The notes below the pieces were generated by a model, which was not told where the DNA came from, searched no databases, and worked only from the letters and a program-made list of their open reading frames with translations. A stretch of DNA of 38,938 nt, taken from positions 1 to 38,938 of the IMG/VR virus record IMGVR_UViG_3300047284_000055; one strand, 5' to 3'. The stretch comes from a virus. The translations under genes and the position numbers were made by a program. Shown here one piece after another: positions 2,000-17,196 of the stretch (positions are counted from its first letter, which is position 1; the number at the start of each line of letters is the position of its first letter).

Positions 2000-2190
2000 T
2001 GAAAGCCGAAAGCAACTCGGTCTTCATGGTTGGTCTTTTGGGAGCGATGGCAGTCCTCGGCACGACTAAAAACTACCGTCGGACTCCTCTCCGGCTCCTT
2101 TCGTGGTCATCGCTCCCACCCTTTTTGGAACCGCTTCCTGCTTGATAAACTGTAGTTTGTTGAGGATAGATCAGGTTGCGGTTCCACCAG
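2000..2190 (+). ncRNA. Candidate structured RNA after ssb
   Basis: No convincing ORF lies in 1993-2424, but three strong folds do. Fold 1: 2001-2009 pairs with 2017-2025 (one mismatch). Fold 2: a 12-pair helix 2040-2051/2106-2117 (GGGAGCGATG with CATCGCTCCC) encloses 2052-2056/2081-2085 and 2058-2060/2076-2078. Fold 3: a rod of helix 2126-2134/2178-2186, a symmetric UU/UU loop, helix 2137-2140/2172-2175, a 7-base bulge, and a 10-pair helix 2141-2150/2155-2164 capped by UGUA. Helix 2141-2164 contains three G-U pairs that would be A-C mismatches in the opposite strand, so the transcript would be plus-strand. I know no matching RNA family. A 3' UTR element or a DNA element such as an origin are alternatives. 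Confidence 0.55.
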
Positions 2191-2299
2191 TACAAACCGT
2201 CGAGCGCGTGAGCAGTGCCACCAAAACGCCTCAGTCAATGGCAATACCTAGCCAACGCCTAAATCCCTTTAAATCGCTCCCCGTACCGATTATTTCCGC

Positions 2300-2318
2300 T
2301 GTTTACTATTTGTAAACA
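2300..2318. promoter_or_regulatory. Perfect palindrome TGTTTAC-N5-GTAAACA, possible operator
   Basis: Two 7-base arms are separated by TATTT, giving a 19-base dyad typical of a dimeric repressor site. It lies about 27 bases upstream of the -35 box of the promoter at 2345. The half-site GTTTACTA recurs at 2391-2398, between that promoter and the first gene. The binding protein is unknown; the winged-helix product of 4450 is one candidate. Confidence 0.4.
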
Positions 2319-2344
2319 TTAGCCTGTTTTTGGAAAAAAGTTTG

Positions 2345-2372
2345 TTGCCAACTGTCGCAGTTAAGGCATAAT
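2345..2372 (+). promoter_or_regulatory. Sigma70-type promoter for the 2425 operon
   Basis: TTGCCA (2345-2350), a 16-base spacer and CATAAT (2367-2372) each match the consensus hexamers at five of six positions. Transcription would start near 2379, giving a leader of about 45 bases before the 2425 gene. Nearly the same boxes occur at 38161-38189 and, on the minus strand, at 37808-37780, which supports a shared promoter class. Confidence 0.6.
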
Positions 2373-2408
2373 ACTATTTGCATCACCGTAGTTTACTAAA
2401 TGACAACA

Positions 2409-2418
2409 CACGAAAGGA
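2409..2418 (+). repeat. CACGAAAGGA leader motif, copy 1 of 4
   Basis: The 10-base string CACGAAAGGA carries the ribosome-binding site of four genes: here (gene at 2425), at 3408-3417 (DUF932), at 38220-38229 (ERF) and on the minus strand at 37768-37759 (YdaU). The AAGGA core explains ribosome binding, but the constant CACG prefix exceeds what a Shine-Dalgarno site needs, so a shared leader element is likely. Confidence 0.55.
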
Positions 2419-2424
2419 GTCATC

Positions 2425-2673
2425 ATGCAAGTAGAAATCAATCAATCGCAAATCGTTGACAAGCCGCTGGTGTATTTAGACGGACGCGAGACGGAATTGC
2501 GTATGTGCGATAACGGCGAATTTTTTAAGCGCACACAAAAAGCAAAAAAAGTCTGGATTCGTGGTGATTATGTTCCAAGCAAAAAAGCATTCTTGTGTCA
2601 TGCGTGGGATGACGTATGTCAAGAAATGTTGATTAAAGCAGATAAAAAAGTTTTTGTAGATTTTTATTTCTAA
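2425..2673 (+). CDS. Hypothetical protein (82 aa)
   Basis: I do not recognise this 82-residue protein. It has a beta-rich N-terminal half, a Lys-rich centre (KRTQKAKKVWIRGDYVPSKK) and an aromatic C-terminus ending FVDFYF. Two Cys (residues 27 and 58) are isolated, so zinc binding is not suggested. It is the first gene behind the promoter at 2345, with AAGGAG well placed before the ATG. Being first in an early-looking operon of small genes, it could be a host-takeover factor, which is inference. Confidence 0.65.
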   Translation: MQVEINQSQIVDKPLVYLDGRETELRMCDNGEFFKRTQKAKKVWIRGDYVPSKKAFLCHAWDDVCQEMLIKADKKVFVDFYF

Positions 2674-2683
2674 GGGGAACGAC

Positions 2684-3001
2684 ATGGCTATTTACCGCGA
2701 AGTTAACTACACCATTGATATGGAATCTAATTGGAAGATTGCATATGGACCAAAAGGTTATGCGTTTGCCATTAAGCGTGATGACAACAGCGATGTTTGC
2801 ACGTTGCACAATGGTCTTACTCCGCAGGACAAAGCATTGGCGATGTTGATTACTGCTGCGCCGGATATGCTCAATGCGTTGCGTGATATTTGGAGCGATG
2901 AATTTGTTCGTTCTAAATTGACGTATGAGCAAAGTATTGCAGTGCATGACGCGTTAGCCAAAGCCGAGAACTGGTACAAGACGGAGGTGAGCCATGTATA
3001 A
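2684..3001 (+). CDS. Phage hypothetical protein with AAPDMLNAL motif
   Basis: The 105-residue protein has a beta-rich first half (WKIAYGPKGYAFAIKRDD) and then LITAAPDMLNALRDIW with a closing ALAKAENW. This tail resembles the AAPDLLEAL...AIAKAE block seen in many small phage proteins of unknown function. AAGGGGAAC precedes the ATG. Its stop region overlaps the start of the next gene by eight bases (2994), indicating coupled translation. Confidence 0.7.
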   Translation: MAIYREVNYTIDMESNWKIAYGPKGYAFAIKRDDNSDVCTLHNGLTPQDKALAMLITAAPDMLNALRDIWSDEFVRSKLTYEQSIAVHDALAKAENWYKTEVSHV

Positions 3002-3287
3002 CAATACTTATCAAAGAACTTTTTGGGCTGATGTGTATGAAATCGATGAGTTGATTAAAACAATGGAGGACATAAGCAGCGATGACAAGCGTCGGCTGGA
3101 AAGTTATACGCATGAAGAAGTAGCGTTGGAAGCAGAGTATGTATTGTCCACATTTTATGAATCTGGTCACATCAACAATAGTTCATACATCGGCGAACAT
3201 GGGGAGGATGAATATCATTGGGCAGTTAACGAAGTAGAGAAATTGAAAGCATTTTTGAAAAAATTTGAAGGACGTAATCGTGCGTAA
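2994..3287 (+). CDS. Hypothetical acidic helical protein (97 aa)
   Basis: I do not recognise this 97-residue protein. It is rich in Glu and Asp and looks mostly helical (DVYEIDELIKTMEDI; VNEVEKLKAFLKKFEG). The start has a strong ACGGAGGTG site inside the previous gene. The C-terminus overlaps the GTG start of the small membrane protein (3280). Acidic small early proteins often bind host proteins, but nothing in this sequence decides its role. Confidence 0.6.
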   Translation: MYNNTYQRTFWADVYEIDELIKTMEDISSDDKRRLESYTHEEVALEAEYVLSTFYESGHINNSSYIGEHGEDEYHWAVNEVEKLKAFLKKFEGRNRA

Positions 3288-3425: not shown

Positions 3426-4394
3426 ATGGCACATCAAATCACTATTCGCGCTGACGGTTTTGCTGAAATGGCATTCGTTGGTGACACTCCTTGGCATGGT
3501 CTTGGTCAGGAACTCGACCCAAATGCTGGTATGGATGCGTGGCGTAAAGCAGCAGGAATGGATTGGACAATAGAATCTACTCCAGTTACTTATGCACCAA
3601 ACAATTATGATGCAATCACGTTTCCAGAGCGTTTTGTACAGTATCGTAGTGACACGCTGGCTCCGTTGAGCGTGGTGTCAGCGCGTTACAAACCAGTGCA
3701 GCCTAGCCAAGTATTAGAATTCTTCCATGAACTAGCGCAGGAACACGGATTCAAATTGCACACTGCTGGCACGTTGTTTGGTGGCAAACGTCTGTGGGCA
3801 TTGGCTGAAACCGGCAAGTTTGCGGAAGTGAGCAAGGATGATGGTATAGGTGGCTTCCTGCTTCTATCTACGTCATGCGATAAATCATTGGCAACTACAG
3901 CGCGGTTTACCAGTGTCCGCGTTGTTTGCAATAATACTTTGAGTTTCGCTACGCAAAGCAGCGATTACGTTTCCTTCACTCACCTGACACAGTGGGATAG
4001 TTCCAAGATGCATGATCGTATCGCGCAGCAGGTGGAATCATTTGGCGCATTCATGGAAATGGCGAAACATTTAAAGAAACAGAAATGTGATGCAGCCGCA
4101 GCACAAGAATTCCTAAAGCAGATTCTATTCACGCCGAAGGAACTGCAAACGCTTGAGCCAACCAGTATTGAAAAATACCGTCCGTATAACCGCATCTTGG
4201 AATTGTTTTATGGGGAGGCTAAAGGGTGGCAATTAGATGGTGTTAGGGGGACTAAATGGGGGCTATTGAATTCGATTACCGAATACTTAGACCATCATTC
4301 ACCTGCACGTTCCGATGATGCGCGATTAAATTCCGCTTGGTTCGGTGGTGGCGATGCAATTAAATCGAAAGCAGTGGAGTTACTTGCCGCTTGA
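3426..4394 (+). CDS. DUF932 (phage/plasmid TIGR03299-type) protein
   Basis: The 322-residue protein matches the DUF932 family found in phages and plasmids. It shows AFVGDTPWHGLGQEL near the start, VVSARYKPVQPSQVLEFF and LFGGKRLWALAETG in the middle, and TSVRVVCNNTLSFA before a helical C-terminal half. The length is typical. The biochemical function is unknown; members lie among early replication and recombination genes, as here. The CACGAAAGGA leader precedes the ATG. Its stop codon overlaps the TTGACA-like box at 4391 and a terminator follows 28 bases later, so this gene closes the 2425 transcription unit. Confidence 0.88.
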   Translation: MAHQITIRADGFAEMAFVGDTPWHGLGQELDPNAGMDAWRKAAGMDWTIESTPVTYAPNNYDAITFPERFVQYRSDTLAPLSVVSARYKPVQPSQVLEFFHELAQEHGFKLHTAGTLFGGKRLWALAETGKFAEVSKDDGIGGFLLLSTSCDKSLATTARFTSVRVVCNNTLSFATQSSDYVSFTHLTQWDSSKMHDRIAQQVESFGAFMEMAKHLKKQKCDAAAAQEFLKQILFTPKELQTLEPTSIEKYRPYNRILELFYGEAKGWQLDGVRGTKWGLLNSITEYLDHHSPARSDDARLNSAWFGGGDAIKSKAVELLAA

Positions 4395-4437
4395 CATACT
4401 AATACTCAGCGGTAATACTATCCCCCGACTAATACTC
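4391..4437 (+). promoter_or_regulatory. TTGACA box and TAATACT repeats
   Basis: TTGACA (4391-4396) overlaps the DUF932 stop. TAATACT occurs three times, within 4400-4406, 4413-4419 and 4431-4437, the first and last inside the identical 10-mer ACTAATACTC about 30 bases apart. A -10 box at 4413-4418 (TAATAC, 16-base spacer) is weak. The repeats may be operators for the winged-helix protein encoded just downstream, which is inference. Confidence 0.35.
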
Positions 4438-4449
4438 GGGGGATTTTTT
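4422..4449 (+). terminator. Intrinsic terminator before the winged-helix gene
   Basis: A perfect 7-pair stem, CCCCCGA (4422-4428) with TCGGGGG (4436-4442), has a 7-base loop and is followed by ATTTTTT. This is a textbook rho-independent terminator ending the DUF932 unit. The T-run directly abuts the ATG at 4450, and the G-rich right arm occupies the position where a Shine-Dalgarno site would lie. Confidence 0.85.
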
Positions 4450-4707
4450 ATGCCTAACGCCAGCAGCACACTAATGACGATTTTCCGTGAGTCTAGTGAG
4501 CCTTTAACGATGCATGAATTGTTACCAATGGCTGAATCATTGAAAAAGAATGAAATTTCAATGGCACTTTGTTACCTGCTAAAGCAAGGATATTTGTCAC
4601 GAGAAAAAGTAGAGCGTCGCGGTACTCGCGGACGCAAAGAAATATGGTTGTACACATTTCATGCTGATCGTCAAAAGGAACAACACAATGAACCAAATGC
4701 AAATTGA
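4450..4707 (+). CDS. Winged-helix DNA-binding protein
   Basis: The 85-residue protein has a winged helix-turn-helix pattern: TMHELLPMAESLKKNEISMALCYLLKQGYL forms helices 2-3, and REKVERRGTRGRKEIWLYTF the basic wing. It resembles small phage or MarR-like regulators. I chose the ATG at 4450 because the frame upstream runs through the terminator stem. No separate Shine-Dalgarno site exists; the terminator arm CGGGGGA, six T residues away, may serve. The end overlaps the ParB-like start (4688). It is the best candidate for a transcription regulator in the window and may act on the TAATACT repeats next to its own start. Confidence 0.7.
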   Translation: MPNASSTLMTIFRESSEPLTMHELLPMAESLKKNEISMALCYLLKQGYLSREKVERRGTRGRKEIWLYTFHADRQKEQHNEPNAN

Positions 4708-5293
4708 ATATAAACCTACTGCTGACCTAATACCATACGCAAGAAATAGTAGGACGCATACAGACGCACAAATCAATCAAATTGCTGCGTCTATCCGTGA
4801 ATTTGGTTTCCGTGTGCCAGTGTTAGTAACTGGTGACAACACGATCATTGCCGGTCATGGTCGCGTACTGGCTGCGTTGAAACTTGGTATTGATGAAATA
4901 CCTACAGTAGATGGTAGTGATATGGATGACATACAGCGCAGGATGTACGTCATCGCTGATAACAAAATCGCACTGAATGCAGGATGGGATGAAGAAGTAT
5001 TAATGCTAGAAATTGAAGATTTGCGTAGTCTTGGTGCGGATATTGAATTGCTCGCATTTGATCCTTCAGAAATTAAAAAGAACGACATTGATTATTCAGT
5101 ATTAGATGACCACAACATTGATGACCAAATTGATGACATGGCGAAAGGTGTCCGCAAAGCAATACAAATTGAATTTGAGGTAGATCATTATGACGAAGCA
5201 TTTGAACTGGTGAAGTATTGGCGTGATGAAGGCGCATATGTGGGATACATGATTATGGATTTCCTTCGCAAAGAAAAAGCGAAAGTGCAATGA
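4688..5293 (+). CDS. ParB-like N-terminal domain protein
   Basis: From the ATG at 4688 (AAGGA eight bases upstream) the protein has 201 residues. Residues 8-130 form a ParB/sulfiredoxin-type domain: DLIPYARNSRTHTDAQINQIAASI, FRVPVLVTGDNTIIAGHGRVLAALKLG with the box GHGRVLAA (56-63), and MYVIADNKIALNAGWDEE. In many phages this domain is fused to a DNA methylase; here no methylase follows, and the C-terminus is a 70-residue acidic and aromatic tail. The stop overlaps the glycosyltransferase start (ATGA), so it belongs to the predicted DNA-modification operon. Nuclease, NTPase or targeting activity are all possible for the fold. Confidence 0.82.
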   Translation: MNQMQIEYKPTADLIPYARNSRTHTDAQINQIAASIREFGFRVPVLVTGDNTIIAGHGRVLAALKLGIDEIPTVDGSDMDDIQRRMYVIADNKIALNAGWDEEVLMLEIEDLRSLGADIELLAFDPSEIKKNDIDYSVLDDHNIDDQIDDMAKGVRKAIQIEFEVDHYDEAFELVKYWRDEGAYVGYMIMDFLRKEKAKVQ

Positions 5294-6120
5294 AGGTATT
5301 TACCTTCTTTTATAACCGATTTGAAAACGCTTCAACGTCTATCGCGTTGGAAGCAAACAGCATTCCTCATTATGTGTTGATTCATAAACCAGAAGATCAC
5401 GATAAATTTCGTCGGCATAATACCTGTCGTGGTACAGCAGTAGTAACAAATAATGGCAAAGGATTGGCATACCAGCGGAATAGCGCACTAGACATGATGA
5501 ACACTGGCGAGTGGGCAGTTTTCATGTGCGATGATTTTATGAAAATAAAAAGTATGCCGGAGGAATGGATACTTAGTGGCAATCAAGAATTGCCGATTAA
5601 CTTTGCTAACCAAAATAAATTTAGGCTGAAGGAAAATGGATTTACGCTAAAAAAAATGTTTGCGTTGTTTCCGCGGTTGATAGAACTGGCTGAACGTAAT
5701 CACATTCATTTGGTTGGATTTGGTTTGCACGACAATCCTATGAATCTGCGAAAAAAATTTAATCATCGTGGATTGGCTGATGGACGGTTCTGGTTGGTAA
5801 AAAAAGCAGGATACAAATTTGATACCAACGCGCAGTTAATTGATGATGTGGCGTGGACAGCAGAAAATTTAGTGCGTCACCGAAACGTTCTGGTACTTAA
5901 TTGGTTAGTTCCTTATTTCCAGCGTTATACAGCAGGAGGGTTCGGCAGCACTGCGGAACGTCTGGCTTTGCGTCGTAAAGAATGTGCTTATCTTGCCAAC
6001 AAATACAATCCATTGGTAAAGATCGCTCAGAAACCTGGATGGGAAAGCGGAACTCACATTCGTTTGTTTGGAACTGATAAAAATATCGAAATCGTAAGAA
6101 AGCGGAACGGATTGCTATGA
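5290..6120 (+). CDS. Glycosyltransferase, TET-associated (TAGT) type
   Basis: The 276-residue protein looks like a GT-A-type glycosyltransferase: MKVFTFFYNRF and an IPHYVLIH strand, then NGKGLAYQRNSALD (55-68) and the acidic metal and nucleotide-sugar site FMCDDF (78-83). A second half has GLADGRFWLVKKAGYKFD and DDVAW. This pattern fits the TET/JBP-associated glycosyltransferases described from phage gene neighbourhoods, and it overlaps a TET/JBP-type oxygenase by four bases (6117). The predicted job is transfer of a sugar to hydroxymethylated bases in phage DNA. A glycosyltransferase acting on another acceptor remains possible. There is no signal peptide or membrane segment, so it should be cytoplasmic. 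Confidence 0.72.
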   Translation: MKVFTFFYNRFENASTSIALEANSIPHYVLIHKPEDHDKFRRHNTCRGTAVVTNNGKGLAYQRNSALDMMNTGEWAVFMCDDFMKIKSMPEEWILSGNQELPINFANQNKFRLKENGFTLKKMFALFPRLIELAERNHIHLVGFGLHDNPMNLRKKFNHRGLADGRFWLVKKAGYKFDTNAQLIDDVAWTAENLVRHRNVLVLNWLVPYFQRYTAGGFGSTAERLALRRKECAYLANKYNPLVKIAQKPGWESGTHIRLFGTDKNIEIVRKRNGLL

Positions 6121-6890
6121 AAACATTGGAATTAGTGTTGCAACCGCATAACGTGAAGATTGGCGATGTAACGCCAGACTACGAACCAAATATTACTGAG
6201 GATACGCTTTTTGTGTCCGATGGAGAGGTAGTTGGTTTTTATTTAAAGCAAATTCCTGAAAGCGTACGGAAGTATGTAGAAATAGCAAATGCAGAACTGT
6301 TAAGTGATAGAGTTCCTAAATCAGAAATGCGTAGATCAAGCGGATTACGCAATGAAGAAGCAGAGGTAAGGCAATATTCAACGATTATTGGCTCATGTGC
6401 GCCTAAACCGCATATGAAGCGTCCTTATCCAGCGATTTCTAGTGTCCATAATGTCAAATCAGCGCAAACATTTATCAAAGCGATGCTCCTCGCCTGTCAT
6501 GAGTCCGAGAATCTCATTCGAGAAATCGCGCCATCGGTTTTCGAGCGGCAGGAAAAAATTATCAATGAGAAGGTTCCACCAAAATGGCGATTCGGTAGAT
6601 TGTTCACCAGCAGCATTTCCAATTTCAACATTGCAGCAAACTATCATCGAGACGCAGGGAATCTGGAAGGATGTGCCAATGTCATCATCGCCAAAAAATC
6701 TCACGCTCGGGGAGGTAATACTACGATTCCTGACTATTCCGCTACTGTTGACAGTGCCGATAATTCGATGCTTGTATATCCTGCTTGGAGGAATGTACAT
6801 GGTGTTACGCCAATTGTTCCTTTGCGTGAAGATGGTTATCGCAATTCTTTGGTCTTTTATCCGTTGAAAGCGTTTACCGCGTATGAGTGA
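6117..6890 (+). CDS. TET/JBP-type 2-oxoglutarate Fe(II) dioxygenase
   Basis: The 257-residue protein has the iron-binding pattern of TET/JBP oxygenases: H177-R-D179 in NYHRDAGN, H228 in RNVHGV, and R242 in GYRNSLVFY for 2-oxoglutarate. Between them lie ANVIIAKKSHARGG and ADNSMLVYPAW, matching strands of the double-stranded beta-helix. Phage members oxidise the 5-methyl group of 5-methylcytosine, and JBP members that of thymine. Residues 1-100 are a poorly conserved N-terminal region. It overlaps the glycosyltransferase upstream and the Cys-rich gene downstream by a few bases, so one operon. I see no cytosine-5 methyltransferase gene in the window, so the substrate base is open. Confidence 0.82.
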   Translation: MKTLELVLQPHNVKIGDVTPDYEPNITEDTLFVSDGEVVGFYLKQIPESVRKYVEIANAELLSDRVPKSEMRRSSGLRNEEAEVRQYSTIIGSCAPKPHMKRPYPAISSVHNVKSAQTFIKAMLLACHESENLIREIAPSVFERQEKIINEKVPPKWRFGRLFTSSISNFNIAANYHRDAGNLEGCANVIIAKKSHARGGNTTIPDYSATVDSADNSMLVYPAWRNVHGVTPIVPLREDGYRNSLVFYPLKAFTAYE

Positions 6891-10388: not shown

Positions 10389-11783
10389 ATGGGATTGTTT
10401 GACATATTCAGAGGGAAAAAGCAGCAAATAAACGAGGCAAACGTAGTCCTCGGTCAAATGCAATTAGGTAACCAAGTAGTCATTGGTAACCAAAACAAAC
10501 AACCTGCTCAACAATTACTATACGTCACAACATCCAGTTCTACTGTTGCCGGTAGAACTTTGGATATGTCCGCGTTAACACGCAATTCAACCGTTATGGG
10601 ATGTGTGGGTGTTAAGGCAAGAGCATTATCCCAATGCAGTATTAGTATTATGTCGAAGTCCGAGGACGGTACATTTATTAATGCTGTAACTGATCCCACT
10701 GTAGGACCAAGAGATAAATCGAAAGCGAAACAAGTTTTAAGTCTGTTGCAAAACCCGAATAATTTCCAAAGCCAATATGAGTTTTGGTATCAGTGGTGTA
10801 TGTGGCAAGACCTCGCTGGCGAATCATTTACGTTATGGTGGCGCAAAGATCAGAAGGACAGCAGCGCAACACCAATGGAGATGTACAACCTAGATTCCAC
10901 GTTAATTACGGTCAAACTATCTGACACTAGGTATCCGCTATATGTATTAAGTAGTCCGTCTTATGGTTTTTCCAAAGATCAGCCGCTTGATTATTATCAG
11001 GTGATGCACGTTAAAGAAGCGGCATGGCAAGGATCATCCGGTTTTAACAAAGGCATTTTGGCTACGGAACTGGTTGCGCTAGACCAAGATATTGATGTTT
11101 ATGCAAACTTTATAATGCAGAATGGCGCAAAACCATCCGGCTTATTTATGACGGATCAGGTTATTCCAGACGCTAAATATAAAGAAATTGCAGCACGTAT
11201 TAAAGAAGCGTGGAATAGTCTTATGGGCAGTCGCGCTAATGATCCAAGCAAACCCGGACAAGGTATGTTGCTAGATCAAGGCATGAAGTATGAGCCGGTG
11301 AAAATGCTGACGCTGCAAGATGCAGACGCGGCAAATTTAAAGGTTCAAACTATGAAGCGGATTTGTGGTTTGTTCGGTGTTCCACCAGCAATGCTTGGCA
11401 TTGCAGACCAAAAGTATAATAATACTCAAACGATGCTTGATGAGTTTTATAAAACTGTCATGTATCCGATGATTATCAATATTGAGCAAAAATTAAATAA
11501 ATCGCTACTAAAAGGATACCCAAATCTATGTGTGCGTTTTGACACAAAAGATTTCTTAAAAGGCGCGGCACTTGACCAAATGAATTTTGTGTCGGCTGGA
11601 ATTAACGCAGGTATTATGACCGTCAATGAAGCGCGTGAATATTTAAATATGGCGCAAATTGAAGGGGCAGACGAATTAAAAGACAACGCGACAGAACCGG
11701 ATCCTATTCCCGGAACTTCGCCACAAGATACTGGTGGTGGTGGTGGCAATCAAACTCGGCGCATGAATATTGGAACGACATGA
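10389..11783 (+). CDS. Portal protein, HK97 type
   Basis: The 464-residue protein starts MGLFDIFRGKK, the usual HK97 portal N-terminus. It contains the stem and wing signatures DYYQVMHVKEA, KRICGLFGVPPAMLGI and MNFVSAGINAGIMTVNEAREYLNM. A low-complexity Pro/Gly-rich tail (GTSPQDTGGGGGN) ends it. It forms the dodecameric ring at one capsid vertex through which DNA enters. The TGA overlaps the ATG of the small ORF at 11780. Confidence 0.96.
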   Translation: MGLFDIFRGKKQQINEANVVLGQMQLGNQVVIGNQNKQPAQQLLYVTTSSSTVAGRTLDMSALTRNSTVMGCVGVKARALSQCSISIMSKSEDGTFINAVTDPTVGPRDKSKAKQVLSLLQNPNNFQSQYEFWYQWCMWQDLAGESFTLWWRKDQKDSSATPMEMYNLDSTLITVKLSDTRYPLYVLSSPSYGFSKDQPLDYYQVMHVKEAAWQGSSGFNKGILATELVALDQDIDVYANFIMQNGAKPSGLFMTDQVIPDAKYKEIAARIKEAWNSLMGSRANDPSKPGQGMLLDQGMKYEPVKMLTLQDADAANLKVQTMKRICGLFGVPPAMLGIADQKYNNTQTMLDEFYKTVMYPMIINIEQKLNKSLLKGYPNLCVRFDTKDFLKGAALDQMNFVSAGINAGIMTVNEAREYLNMAQIEGADELKDNATEPDPIPGTSPQDTGGGGGNQTRRMNIGTT

Positions 11784-11995
11784 ATCGACAAATGAAATTT
11801 GCCGTGACATTATTATCTTCACAAATTAAAACATCTAATGTTAGACTTCCGGCAATTGATCCACCCCATAAGATACGAGATGACAATCAATCTATTAAAA
11901 ATGGGGTGATAAATGAAGAATGTGACATTCGTATGCGAAGCGAGGGTGAGCCTCCAATCAAGCGCAAACGAGGCAGACCAAGAACCAAGCGGTAA
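11780..11995 (+). CDS. Small basic ORF with AT-hook-like tail
   Basis: A 71-residue frame starts within the portal stop (ATGA) and fills the 129-base gap before the protease gene, then overlaps that gene by 83 bases in another frame. The C-terminus KRKRGRPRTKR matches the AT-hook core RGRP with basic flanks, which would bind the minor groove of AT-rich DNA. The upstream ribosome-binding site is weak. It could be a real coupled gene or a chance frame; the exact filling of the gap favours a gene. Confidence 0.42.
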   Translation: MNRQMKFAVTLLSSQIKTSNVRLPAIDPPHKIRDDNQSIKNGVINEECDIRMRSEGEPPIKRKRGRPRTKR

Positions 11996-12710
11996 ACTGG
12001 AAGCAGTTGTTACTACTTGGGGACCGCGTGAAGGCGCAGATGGTCGCCGGTTTAATTATCAGCCAGAAGGATTTGCCGATTGGATGAAGGAGTATGAGGC
12101 GAATGGGCGACCATTGCCAATGTTCCTAAACCATAACGATCATGGAATGCCGGTCGGCGAATGGACACAATTTGAAATGACCGATGACGGTATGAAAGCG
12201 GCAGGACGCTTGTACCTAAATACTGTTGGCGGTTCCGATCTTTACCAAATCCTAAAAGAATCTCCTTCCATGTTTGGTGGCGTTTCTGTTGGCGCATATG
12301 CGGAAGAAGCGCGATGGGTTGATGGAGAAGGTAATCCACTAATGTCAGGCGATGATGACGAAGAAGGATATTTCCAAATTACCAAAGGTGGTTTGCGCGA
12401 AGTATCTGTTGTCATGTATCCCAATAATCCAAATGCAGAAATCCAAAAACTAGAAGCATTTGGAATTGACGGAAAAATAAACCCAAGAGTTCTAGAGCGT
12501 ATTCTGCGTGATGCAGGACTCGCCAAGAAAGATGCGACTGCCGCATCTAGTATCTTCAAGAAAGTATTAGAACAGCGTGACGCTACTAATACTCTTGAGG
12601 ACACGCCTAATCGGAGTGAATCTGATGCGGCAGTGGAGGAAGCCGAAGCAATTGTTGCTGCGTTAGAACAGCATATGTTGTTAAAGGCATTGGAAAAACG
12701 TCTTAAGTAG
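11913..12710 (+). CDS. Prohead protease, HK97 family
   Basis: The 265-residue protein has the HK97 prohead protease core. MFLNHNDHGMPVGEW holds the catalytic His (H74 or H77), GGVSVGAYAEE holds Ser125, and LREVSVVMYPNNPNA is the conserved motif after it. The C-terminal 80 residues are helical and likely scaffold-like. It enters the prohead and removes the delta domain of the capsid protein before DNA packaging. GGGGTGATAAATG provides the start signal; the capsid gene follows after ten bases. Confidence 0.93.
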   Translation: MKNVTFVCEARVSLQSSANEADQEPSGKLEAVVTTWGPREGADGRRFNYQPEGFADWMKEYEANGRPLPMFLNHNDHGMPVGEWTQFEMTDDGMKAAGRLYLNTVGGSDLYQILKESPSMFGGVSVGAYAEEARWVDGEGNPLMSGDDDEEGYFQITKGGLREVSVVMYPNNPNAEIQKLEAFGIDGKINPRVLERILRDAGLAKKDATAASSIFKKVLEQRDATNTLEDTPNRSESDAAVEEAEAIVAALEQHMLLKALEKRLK

Positions 12711-12720
12711 AGGGATCATC

Positions 12721-14079
12721 ATGTCTATTGAAAAAATTCTAGAAAAAGTTGACGCTATTGAAGCGTCAAACATCGCCAAAATTGAGGAAGTAAAAACTCA
12801 AATGGTGGAAGATGTAAACAAAACTGTTGATGCAGTTAAGTCTGAATTGGCAGAACAAGTAGCAGCACTAGAAGCAAAAGTCGCTTCTATCGGTTCGCCT
12901 GAAATTATTCGTGCGCCAACCAAAACAGTTCGTGGTGATGTAAACCGTCGCGTTCGTGAACAACTCGCAGCGTTCACAAAACAAGGTGGCAACAAACTAC
13001 ATCAAGAAATCAAACTGTGGGAAAGCGAAGATCAACACGCAGCATACATGACCGAAGCATCAACGCTGACTGGTTCTGGTGCTGGCATTGGTGGTCGTAC
13101 TGCGTATGATCCAGTGTTCCATAAACTGCGTTTGCTAAACCCAATGCGAGGCGTTTCCCGTCAAGTTTCTACTGACGGTTCTACGTATCAGTTCCGCGCT
13201 AAAACCGGCGACGCTGGTGCAGCATGGGGATATGCAATTCAGAACAACGGCGCAGCAACAACCGAAGCAACGTCGATTTGGCAACTGAATATGCAAGATA
13301 TTAATGTCCAGTTCCCAATTCGTACCGCAGCACTAGATGATATTGATGGTCTGGAAGCAAATGTAGTTGACGATATGCTGCAAGAATTCTCGCAGCAAGA
13401 AGGTCTGTCCATGATCCTTAACAACGATCAGGCTGGATCAACAACAACCGCATACGGCGCAACAAATGGTTTGCGTGGTCTAAACCAATATCCGGGCGCA
13501 AATGCTTCCTACACTGGCGGCACTATTTCTACTGCTTCGTTTGGTAGTAGCGGAACTGCGTCAACCGATGGTTTGCATAACATTGCTACCTATGACCAAA
13601 TCACAACCAATGCAGCAGGTTCGGCAAACAATGTGACTTTTGCAGATATTGTGAACTTCCTACATAACTTGCCACAGCAATATTGGAGTGCAGGAAATAA
13701 ATTTATCATTAATCCAATTATGCTTGCTGGTATTCGTGGTTTGGTTGATGACAACGGCACTCCAGTATTTGAGCGTATGTCGCCATTGGTGTACGAAGGT
13801 ATTGTTGGCAAACTGATGGGTTACGATGTTGTCGTTAACTCCTATCTGGAAAGTCCTATTGCTGCTGGTGCATCTCCCGGAACCAATAGCCAATATCCAA
13901 TGTACTTTGGTGACTTTACGCGTGGTCATACCATTGTTGATCGTTTGAGCATGGTGTTGCGTCGTTATGAACAGACACAGCCCGGATTCATTACCTTCTA
14001 TGGTGAGAAGCGTCTGGCTACGTCTGTGGTTGATCCGTTTAGCATTATCCGTTATCGCTCAACGGCGACTGGTGCTTAA
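12721..14079 (+). CDS. Major capsid protein 1, with delta domain
   Basis: The 452-residue HK97-fold capsid protein has an N-terminal delta (scaffold) region of about 105 residues with heptad-like coiled coil (IEEVKTQMVEDVNKTV; LAEQVAALEAKV). The shell domain starts near LTGSGAGIGGRT (116-127). Shared capsid signatures are AALDDIDGLEANVVDDM, EFSQQEG, NNDQAGSTTTAYG, NGLRGL and the C-terminal PGFITFYGEKR. The delta domain would be cut off by the protease encoded upstream. A close paralogue without the delta domain follows (14135). This is probably the main shell subunit. Confidence 0.95.
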   Translation: MSIEKILEKVDAIEASNIAKIEEVKTQMVEDVNKTVDAVKSELAEQVAALEAKVASIGSPEIIRAPTKTVRGDVNRRVREQLAAFTKQGGNKLHQEIKLWESEDQHAAYMTEASTLTGSGAGIGGRTAYDPVFHKLRLLNPMRGVSRQVSTDGSTYQFRAKTGDAGAAWGYAIQNNGAATTEATSIWQLNMQDINVQFPIRTAALDDIDGLEANVVDDMLQEFSQQEGLSMILNNDQAGSTTTAYGATNGLRGLNQYPGANASYTGGTISTASFGSSGTASTDGLHNIATYDQITTNAAGSANNVTFADIVNFLHNLPQQYWSAGNKFIINPIMLAGIRGLVDDNGTPVFERMSPLVYEGIVGKLMGYDVVVNSYLESPIAAGASPGTNSQYPMYFGDFTRGHTIVDRLSMVLRRYEQTQPGFITFYGEKRLATSVVDPFSIIRYRSTATGA

Positions 14080-14080
14080 T

Positions 14081-14110
14081 GAAGCGGGGAAGGGAAACCT
14101 TCCCCTCTTT
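14081..14110 (+). terminator. GNRA-capped stem-loop between the two capsid genes
   Basis: An 8-pair perfect stem GGGGAAGG (14086-14093) with CCTTCCCC (14098-14105) is capped by the tetraloop GAAA. It is extended below one mismatch by GAAG/CTTT. Only a short T-rich tail follows, so it may be a leaky terminator or a 3' mRNA stabiliser. Either way it would set the first capsid protein above the second in amount. Confidence 0.6.
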
Positions 14111-14134
14111 GTATAACTATTGGGGAAAGATCAC

Positions 14135-15157
14135 ATGAGTGCAAATCAAAAAATTCTAGACGGAATCAAATTGTCTATACGCGAAAATAAACGCGTGACA
14201 ATTGATCTGAGTGAGGCATCTTCCTTGACCGGATCGGGTCTTGATATTGGTGGTCGCACTCATTTTGACGATGTGTTTGCAAAACTTCGTTTGCAAAATC
14301 CATTTCGTATGGGCGCAAGAAACATCAAAGTGCCAAATAATTCAGCGGTTCAATTTGTTGCAAAAACAGGTAACGCAACAAATCAAGCAAATCCGTGGGG
14401 ATATACATTTACGCCGAACACAGGTACGCCAAATACCGCAACGTCTATTTGGCAGTTGCCAACGCGTGTTATTACCGCACAATTGCCAATTCGTACCGCA
14501 GCATTGGATGACATTAACGGATTACAAGCGGAATTGATTGAAGATATGACGCTGGAATTTTCTCAGCAAGAAGCATATTCAATGGCACAAAATAACGATC
14601 AAGCCGGAAGTGTAACAACTACATACGGTGGCACTAATGGTCTGCGCGGTTTAGATTTTTATAATTCAGGAGCGTCAGCAGCGTTTGGCAATAGTGGTAC
14701 TGCTATGACAGATGGTTTGCATCAAATTAGTACAGTATCGCTTGGAGGATTGCCGCCAACTTATAACAAAATTGTGGATATTGCTAACGCGTTGCCTTCG
14801 CAATACTGGTCATTGCCAACAACTGCATGGCATATGTCACCAACAATGATTCAAACACTACGCCAGTTGAAAGACAATTCTGGATTGCCGTTGTTCCTTG
14901 ATATTGGTGAAGCATATGAAGAAGGCGCATTGGGTTCTATCTTTGGTTGGCCTGTAATTCCAAATGCATATCTTAGTTCTGCATTCCCAATCTATTTGGC
15001 TAATTGGGAAAAGTTTATGACTATTGCCGATGTGGAAGAAATGGCAATACAAATGATGGATCAAACTGCGCCGGGATTCATTACCATGTACGCCGAAAAA
15101 CGGATGGTATCTACAGTACGTGATCCGTTTGCTGGTGTTCGTGCAAGCGCAGCGTAA
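14135..15157 (+). CDS. Capsid protein 2, paralogue without delta domain
   Basis: From the ATG at 14135 the protein has 340 residues and aligns by eye along its length with the shell part of the 12721 product. Matches include LTGSGLDIGGRT (31-42), FAKLRLQNPFR, LPIRTAALDDINGLQAEL, EFSQQEA, NNDQAGSVTTTYGGTNGLRGL (in two overlapping pieces), QYWS and PGFITMYAEKRMVS. It lacks about 85 N-terminal residues, meaning the delta domain, so it needs no such maturation. A specialised role, such as pentamers or the portal-proximal shell, is inferred by analogy with T4 gp23/gp24. The N-terminal MSANQKILDGIKLSIRENKRV is unique. Confidence 0.9.
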   Translation: MSANQKILDGIKLSIRENKRVTIDLSEASSLTGSGLDIGGRTHFDDVFAKLRLQNPFRMGARNIKVPNNSAVQFVAKTGNATNQANPWGYTFTPNTGTPNTATSIWQLPTRVITAQLPIRTAALDDINGLQAELIEDMTLEFSQQEAYSMAQNNDQAGSVTTTYGGTNGLRGLDFYNSGASAAFGNSGTAMTDGLHQISTVSLGGLPPTYNKIVDIANALPSQYWSLPTTAWHMSPTMIQTLRQLKDNSGLPLFLDIGEAYEEGALGSIFGWPVIPNAYLSSAFPIYLANWEKFMTIADVEEMAIQMMDQTAPGFITMYAEKRMVSTVRDPFAGVRASAA

Positions 15158-15168
15158 AGGATTCAGCG

Positions 15169-15837
15169 ATGCCTGTCGAAAATCAAACTCTGGCGCCGTT
15201 TTATTCAGATCAACGTAATCCGTTCAATTACGCAAAAATTGAACAGGTAAACCGCGACCTATCAACCGAATGGTTGACGATGGAAGAAATAACGCAGCAA
15301 TTAAATTTGTTTGATGATGAAAGCCAAGATTCTTATCTTTCGGGATTGGAATTGGCTACGCGAATGGCAATCGAAGATTATTTAGGTCAAGCAGTTTTTC
15401 CAACACAATACAAAATTTATTATCCTAATTTTGGTTTGTACAACACGGCGGTATATTTAGATTTGCCGGAAGTATCACCGCCATTACAAGGTCAGCCCGG
15501 AGTGGTTATAAATAAGGTTGAATGTTATACAACATCAAACACTATTCCGGTAACTATTGCGCCAAATTTATATTCGTATGATCCAACAGGAAACCAAGTT
15601 ATTTTAACTGCGTTACCAAATGCTTTGAATCAACAAGTAGCAAATCCGGTCATGGTGACGTACACACAAAACCGCAGCCCGATTGCAAACTATCCAGTAG
15701 TGAAGCAAGCAGGATTAATGTTGTTGACGCATCTGTATAACAATCGTTCTACCGTCGGCGATAGCGTAGCAATGAAAGCGCAAATACCGTTTGGTGTAGA
15801 TCAATTGCTGCGACCATATAAAACTTTGGTGATGTAA
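15169..15837 (+). CDS. Head-tail connector (gp6-like adaptor)
   Basis: The 222-residue protein has the helical adaptor core WLTMEEITQQLNLFDDESQDSYLSGLELATRMAIEDYLGQ (described in parts) followed by beta strands. It ends with VKQAGLMLLTHLYNNRSTV and a closing LLRPYKTLVM, as in HK97 gp6-type connectors. It would sit beneath the portal ring. The order after capsid and before the closure protein is the standard one. The stop overlaps the next ATG by one base. Confidence 0.85.
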   Translation: MPVENQTLAPFYSDQRNPFNYAKIEQVNRDLSTEWLTMEEITQQLNLFDDESQDSYLSGLELATRMAIEDYLGQAVFPTQYKIYYPNFGLYNTAVYLDLPEVSPPLQGQPGVVINKVECYTTSNTIPVTIAPNLYSYDPTGNQVILTALPNALNQQVANPVMVTYTQNRSPIANYPVVKQAGLMLLTHLYNNRSTVGDSVAMKAQIPFGVDQLLRPYKTLVM

Positions 15838-17172: not shown

Positions 17173-17196
17173 ATGCCTCCTTCGGGGGGCATTTTT
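17173..17196 (+). terminator. Intrinsic terminator after the tail tube gene
   Basis: Stem ATGCCTCC (17173-17180) pairs with GGGGGCAT (17185-17192) with one G-U pair, capped by the stable TTCG tetraloop and followed by a T-run. It would limit read-through from the highly expressed capsid and tube genes into the chaperone and tape measure genes. Confidence 0.85.

Follow-up and report, generated by a model that had tools for sequence, protein, structure and literature searches.

The window, i.e., the whole stretch of 38,938 nucleotides that was analysed, carries two HK97-fold capsid genes in tandem, P1 and P2. The two ORFs are intact, adjacent and located on the same strand, and the long N-terminal scaffold helix predicted for P1 is missing from P2. 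P2 is very probably a shell subunit specialised in some way and, on balance, probably a dedicated vertex (penton) subunit resembling gp24 of T4, in a phage with a genome of about 39 kb; we infer its location in the virion, its copy number and the attenuation of its expression. While HK97-fold heads built of two paralogues (T4 gp23/gp24) are already known, what is new here is a conserved terminator-like hairpin in the gap between P1 and P2, which is nearly absent from the rest of the head operon.

The features concerned are the following:

10389..11783, + strand: portal protein (PF04860, E = 1.7e-58)
11913..12710, + strand: prohead protease, S78-like (PF04586, E = 1.5e-7; PHROG 3244, head maturation protease)
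12721..14079, + strand: P1, HK97-fold major capsid protein with a long N-terminal scaffold (delta-like) domain, 452 aa (PF05065, PHROG 10, AF2 and Foldseek)
12727..12888, + strand: P1 residues 3–56, predicted single long helix (coiled-coil "tower"), absent in P2 (AF2, P1-only alignment columns)
14086..14105, + strand: terminator-like hairpin between P1 and P2, with an 8-bp stem, a GAAA loop and a T-rich tail (19.5-kb scan, folding)
14135..15157, + strand: P2, second HK97-fold capsid protein, without the long scaffold helix, 340 aa (PF05065, conservation of M1, AF2 and Foldseek)
15169..15837, + strand: head–tail adaptor, directly 3' of P2 (PF05135, E = 4e-6; PHROG 40, adaptor Ad1)

Tandem capsid genes and their predicted products

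The head operon of the window has the order terminase, portal, protease, P1, P2, adaptor. The preliminary description of this DNA, made without database searches, had proposed two tandem HK97-fold capsid genes, and profile searches bear this out: both products match PHROG 10 (major head protein) and the Phage_capsid family PF05065 (P1, E = 3e-29, 102.7 bits; P2, E = 2e-19, 70.4 bits), above the curated cut-off of 24.2 bits. The two proteins align with 43% identity over 359 columns (E = 2e-89), and the sequence blocks that had been listed as common to them are indeed shared in this alignment. Judging from sequence conservation, the correct start of P2 is ATG 14135, whose M1 is invariant in an alignment of 16 orthologue sequences (A1); it replaces the start given in the ORF list, TTG 14120, which overlaps a Shine–Dalgarno-like GGGGAAAG. 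With the start thus corrected, 112 residues of P1 and 27 of P2 extend up to and including the E of a common EAS motif, and this difference of 85 residues lies within the 85–105 extra residues claimed earlier for P1. The accompanying claim that P1 alone carries a delta domain stands as far as the long scaffold-type domain of P1 is concerned, but P2 keeps about 26 residues before EAS.

The AlphaFold (AF2) models, built from alignments of 98 and 106 rows, are of moderate confidence (mean pLDDT, 75 for P2 and 65 for P1). The top Foldseek matches of both models are the capsids of RcGTA (6tb9) and HK97, with a probability of 1.00 (E-values, 3e-17 for P2 and 3e-16 for P1). RcGTA Rcc01687 (PDB 6tb9) is the nearest solved relative of P1 and P2 by sequence profile as well as by fold, the profile match being limited to the C-terminal part. 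The RcGTA has a single capsid protein.

At its N-terminus, P1 is predicted to form helices at residues 3–56 and 70–87, a strand at 94–97 and a further helix at 103–111; the block pLDDT of the 3–56 region is mostly 54–69, and falls below 50 at residues 50–65. The N-terminus of P2 is modelled as a helix (residues 3–17) followed by a strand (21–24), with block pLDDT of 54–72. According to passages of a study of HK97 Prohead I (PMC10275583), scaffold residues 76–103 form a helix (76–88), a turn and a strand (92–97) under the capsomer, and the scaffold is cleaved at 103/104. The predicted shape of the P2 N-terminus resembles this helix–turn–strand, suggesting that the part missing from P2 is chiefly the coiled coil. 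From the models, it looks as if P2 has kept the scaffold spoke and lost the coiled-coil tower. Homology of the first 26 residues of P2 to the P1 helix 70–87 was also considered and set aside, as it is the predicted shapes alone that agree: in a comparison of the first ~26 residues of P2 with P1, with EAS left out, sequence homology was not found (17/98 above the shuffle threshold).

Columns of the joint alignment that are present in ≥90% of P1s and ≤10% of P2s comprise the N-terminal part and P1 residues 264–271, 294–300, 380–387 and 449–452. Three of these stretches (264–271, 294–300 and 380–387) are loops that are absent from all P2s, and columns found only in P2 are few. From the anatomy of the HK97 fold, the lost loops presumably face the capsomer axis.

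The prohead protease would cut P1, and possibly P2 too. By eye, the protease itself has about 85 charged-rich residues beyond its Pfam domain (window 12454–12710), possibly a scaffold-like tail.

Distribution and evolution of the pair

Among 50,697 phage records, P2 was found only in P19250A (KX815270), which infects a freshwater bacterium of the Methylophilaceae (LD28 clade) and in which the pair and the gene order are as in the window (identity, 60% for P1 and 54.5% for P2). In the annotation of P19250A, P1 is designated "gene transfer agent capsid protein" and P2 "hypothetical protein". No report of a second capsid gene in P19250A or its kin was found in the literature searched, by listings and selected passages. 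OM43 phage Venkman was discarded as a relative, since it has a different head operon with a separate scaffolding gene and was unmatched in the protein searches with P1 and P2.

A profile search of IMG/VR confirmed at least 592 P2 stretches among at least 599 candidates and at least 499 P1 stretches among at least 600 candidates. Loci were kept for the best 80 of at least 592 matches to the P2 profile and for the best 80 of at least 499 matches to the P1 profile; the locus set comprised 151 distinct P2 and 151 distinct P1 sequences, with L021–L023 left out. The search for the same pair in related phages, which the preliminary description had recommended, was thus positive: P1 lies upstream in 134/134 distinct P2 loci having at least 1500 bases upstream, and P2 lies downstream in 139/139 distinct P1 loci having more than 900 bases downstream, these counts describing the P1–P2 family and not phages generally, because the loci had been selected for their similarity to P1 or P2. 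A scan with a distant P1 yielded 41 loci, of which 35 have both genes and six end inside or right after P1.

In HK97, a single gene (gp5) serves for pentamers and hexamers alike. The preliminary description regarded one capsid gene as the usual state, and the outgroup relatives agree: 79 of the 80 outgroup loci, retrieved with the MCP of a Rhizobium phage as lead, contain a single MCP-like ORF, and the two named outgroup phages have one annotated MCP apiece. The outgroup phages share the order terminase, portal, protease, MCP with the window, and HK97 gp5 and the MCPs of single-MCP siphophages combine the HK97 fold with an N-terminal scaffold domain, as does P1. The exceptional outgroup locus, L228, has three MCP-like ORFs (including 2087–3285 and 3974–5272), which perhaps represent one intact and one split capsid gene.

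In a tree of 26 diverse genomes (from 124) and nine outgroup MCPs, obtained by a quick method with a long-branch warning for outgroup versus family, P2 forms one clade (SH-aLRT, 97; stem, 0.88 changes per column), which points to one old duplication. A branch also sets the P1 sequences apart, but its support is weak (39), so P2 could have originated either next to P1 or from inside it. Both proteins are under purifying selection: the median dN/dS over all pairs is 0.146 for P1 (557 pairs) and 0.127 for P2 (536 pairs), and over 47 disjoint genome pairs 0.093 and 0.095, respectively, with P2 higher in 25/47. The mean pairwise difference is larger for P2 (0.369 vs. 0.243 for P1), in 94% of genome pairs P2 is the more divergent protein in amino acids, and the two sets of distances are correlated (Mantel r, 0.63; 0/500 permutations). 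Of the 57 columns fixed in both proteins, 54 have the same residue, the E and S of EAS being among them. Gene conversion between the two genes was rejected, as there was no sign of it in their identity within the same genome (0.427), which exceeds that across genomes (0.423) by only 0.004.

Several members of the family depart from the common layout. In L121, L122, L123, L125, L127, L148 and L164, an in-frame extension of about 100 codons lengthens the stop-to-stop ORF of P2 on its upstream side (L125 was judged by ORF length only), and this extension matched PHROG 2859 (function unknown) in 4/4 extended loci scanned. The old P2 start is kept in these loci and several have AAGGA-like stretches before it, so two products are possible. 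Two divergent P2s (L124:6095-7336 and L150:4976-6214) have an insert of about 70 residues in the predicted E-loop that matches PHROG 38233 (tail fiber protein) and PHROG 21413, which suggests a surface-displayed domain. Homing-endonuclease-like ORFs are inserted in the P1–P2 gap of L014 (PHROG 314, homing endonuclease), L156 (HNH, Pfam), and L015 and L170 (by eye, like L014).

The hairpin in the P1–P2 spacer

In most genomes, the spacer between P1 and P2 is 47–77 bases long. The hairpin of the window has the most G–C pairs of, and stands first among, the terminator-like sites found in a 19.5-kb scan, and the spacer of the window folded as RNA has a dG of −21.4 kcal/mol (z, −3.4); six spacers folded in this way gave z from −1.7 to −3.7. 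A G+C-rich hairpin followed by a T-rich tail was detected in 104/105 distinct P1–P2 spacers, a spacer score that shuffles reached in 14/2100 cases. Under a stricter test of the 75 bases after P1, the hairpin was found at 104/105 distinct P1 3' ends and in 3/525 shuffles, so that the 3' ends of P1 have the G+C-rich hairpin and subsequent T-rich run of an intrinsic (rho-independent) terminator. The same hairpin test gave 5/108 after P2, 1/108 before P1, 0/104 after the adaptor, 0/95 after the portal, 0/105 after the protease and 22/84 after the putative major tail protein gene. The stem sequences diverge widely between genomes. A second terminator-like hairpin of the window (17176–17189) lies immediately 3' of the putative major tail protein gene.

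Being conserved in this gap and rare elsewhere in the head operon, the hairpin suggests that P2 is probably produced at a lower level than P1. Transcription would be partly halted after P1, bringing P2 below P1 and nearer to the ratio of vertices to hexamers. As the putative major tail gene is also 3' of the hairpin, readthrough must be substantial. Terminators after the major capsid gene are known in other phages, such as T7; hence, the P1 hairpin may serve all downstream genes and not P2 alone. Codon bias is stronger in P1 than in P2 in 109/124 genomes, which supports a higher expression of P1 there, with the exception of the window, where the bias is equal (ENC, 41.2 for P1 and 41.1 for P2). 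If the hairpin does act in this way, the stoichiometry of the shell would be readable from sequence.

The place of P2 in the head

The explanation we favour is that P1 and P2 are both shell subunits and products of one old capsid gene duplication. P1 would be the major subunit, forming hexamers and nucleating the prohead on the portal by means of its scaffold domain. P2 would be a low-copy subunit, most likely forming the pentamers at the 11 vertices other than that of the portal (for a T=7 head, 55 copies), and would have lost the coiled-coil tower, unneeded in a penton, together with the capsomer-facing loops of P1. The earlier statement that P2 has to enter a shell nucleated by P1 is plausible. 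On the whole, the preliminary interpretation is largely sound, its statement on the scaffold being refined; of the roles it had named, the vertex is favoured, while a portal ring and size control are less likely.

The likeness to T4 gp24 on which it drew has become stronger. In T4, according to the parts of PMC9958956 consulted, gp24 forms pentamers, the A-loop of gp23 stabilises hexamers, and the propeptide of gp24 is 10 residues long versus 65 in gp23. T4 likewise has two HK97-fold paralogues, the low-copy one with a much shorter propeptide (PMC9958956), and its asymmetry of 10 versus 65 residues parallels the 27 versus 112 residues to the common motif in P2 and P1. Furthermore, gp23 has an extra A-domain loop, as P1 has loops absent from P2. 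P2 resembles a gp24-type vertex protein in being a paralogue of the major subunit (43% identity, a clade beside P1). Its N-terminal part is 85 residues shorter in sequence, and a cleaved propeptide shorter than that of P1 is possible. T4, however, is a large prolate phage and its pair is about 20% identical, whereas P1 and P2 are about 43% identical, in tandem and in a genome of about 39 kb, for which no relationship to T4 was seen. A profile search of solved structures (98 P2 rows) gave three sequences at E ≤ 0.01; two are RcGTA entries, the third is a "major head protein", and T4 is named in none of them. Homologous membership of P2 in the gp24 family is not claimed.

HK97, as described in passages of PMC10275583, offers a further precedent. 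Portal contacts there involve at least 30 scaffold domains, and those around the penton vertices have no substantial interaction with the penton subunits. The pentons of HK97 are nevertheless built from full-length MCP, with scaffold density beneath each of them (PMC10275583), so a penton can be made without losing the tower. Foldseek was uninformative as a test of penton versus hexon, as the models of P1 and P2 alike favoured HK97 chain G, which we take to be the penton chain, over the remaining chains of those entries.

Alternatively, P2 could be mixed with P1 inside hexamers, at fixed or random sites, altering the stability or the surface of the shell. Compatible interfaces are plausible, as P2 keeps the whole HK97 core and the 54 same-residue fixed columns, and its surface E-loop tolerates inserts; however, the conserved hairpin indicates a lower, set amount of P2, and the uniform loss of the P1 loops suggests a distinct environment, which makes such mixing unlikely. 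That P2 acts in assembly only, setting the head size or capping growth, and is absent from or scarce in the mature head, we consider quite improbable: a subunit lacking the scaffold helix might poison prohead growth or restrict it, but the entire shell fold and the surface-loop inserts are strongly conserved, which is better suited to a part of the virion. A special ring of P2 around the portal vertex would agree with its position next to the adaptor gene and with the low copy number expected, yet it is highly doubtful, since about 30 subunits hold the HK97 portal through their scaffold domains (passages of PMC10275583), the very part absent from P2. Finally, the reading of P2 as a functionless gene, whether a recent duplicate, a decaying one or an assembly artefact, is refuted by conservation and selection: nothing in its favour was found beyond the greater divergence of P2, and the relaxed selection that the preliminary description had named as a sign of decay is contradicted by universal linkage, intact frames, dN/dS of about 0.1, one old origin and the presence of P2 in the named phage P19250A.

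According to passages of a review (PMC13185644), separate penton genes are rare and tied to large genomes able to afford them, the head of T4 being set against the single-protein heads of HK97 and P22. The conserved pair described here occurs in phages of about 39 kb, and one of its paralogues has lost the scaffold helix; this amounts to a natural experiment on the purpose of the scaffold domain, bearing on which capsomers require it and on the way the portal is chosen. Freshwater metagenomes contain many members of the group, and one, P19250A, has been cultured, which makes the group testable. More tentatively, we consider it possible that these freshwater siphophages of about 39 kb represent a lineage with two-subunit heads, a towerless penton, a ratio of subunits set by the hairpin and, in some members, vertices displaying adhesin-like domains in the E-loop.

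Elsewhere, positions 4661–6890 of the window hold a cluster of ParB-like, TET-associated glycosyltransferase-like and TET/JBP-like oxygenase genes, all below the curated Pfam cut-offs, which suggests hypermodified phage DNA; the PHROG name for the family of the TET/JBP-like oxygenase is queuine tRNA-ribosyltransferase.
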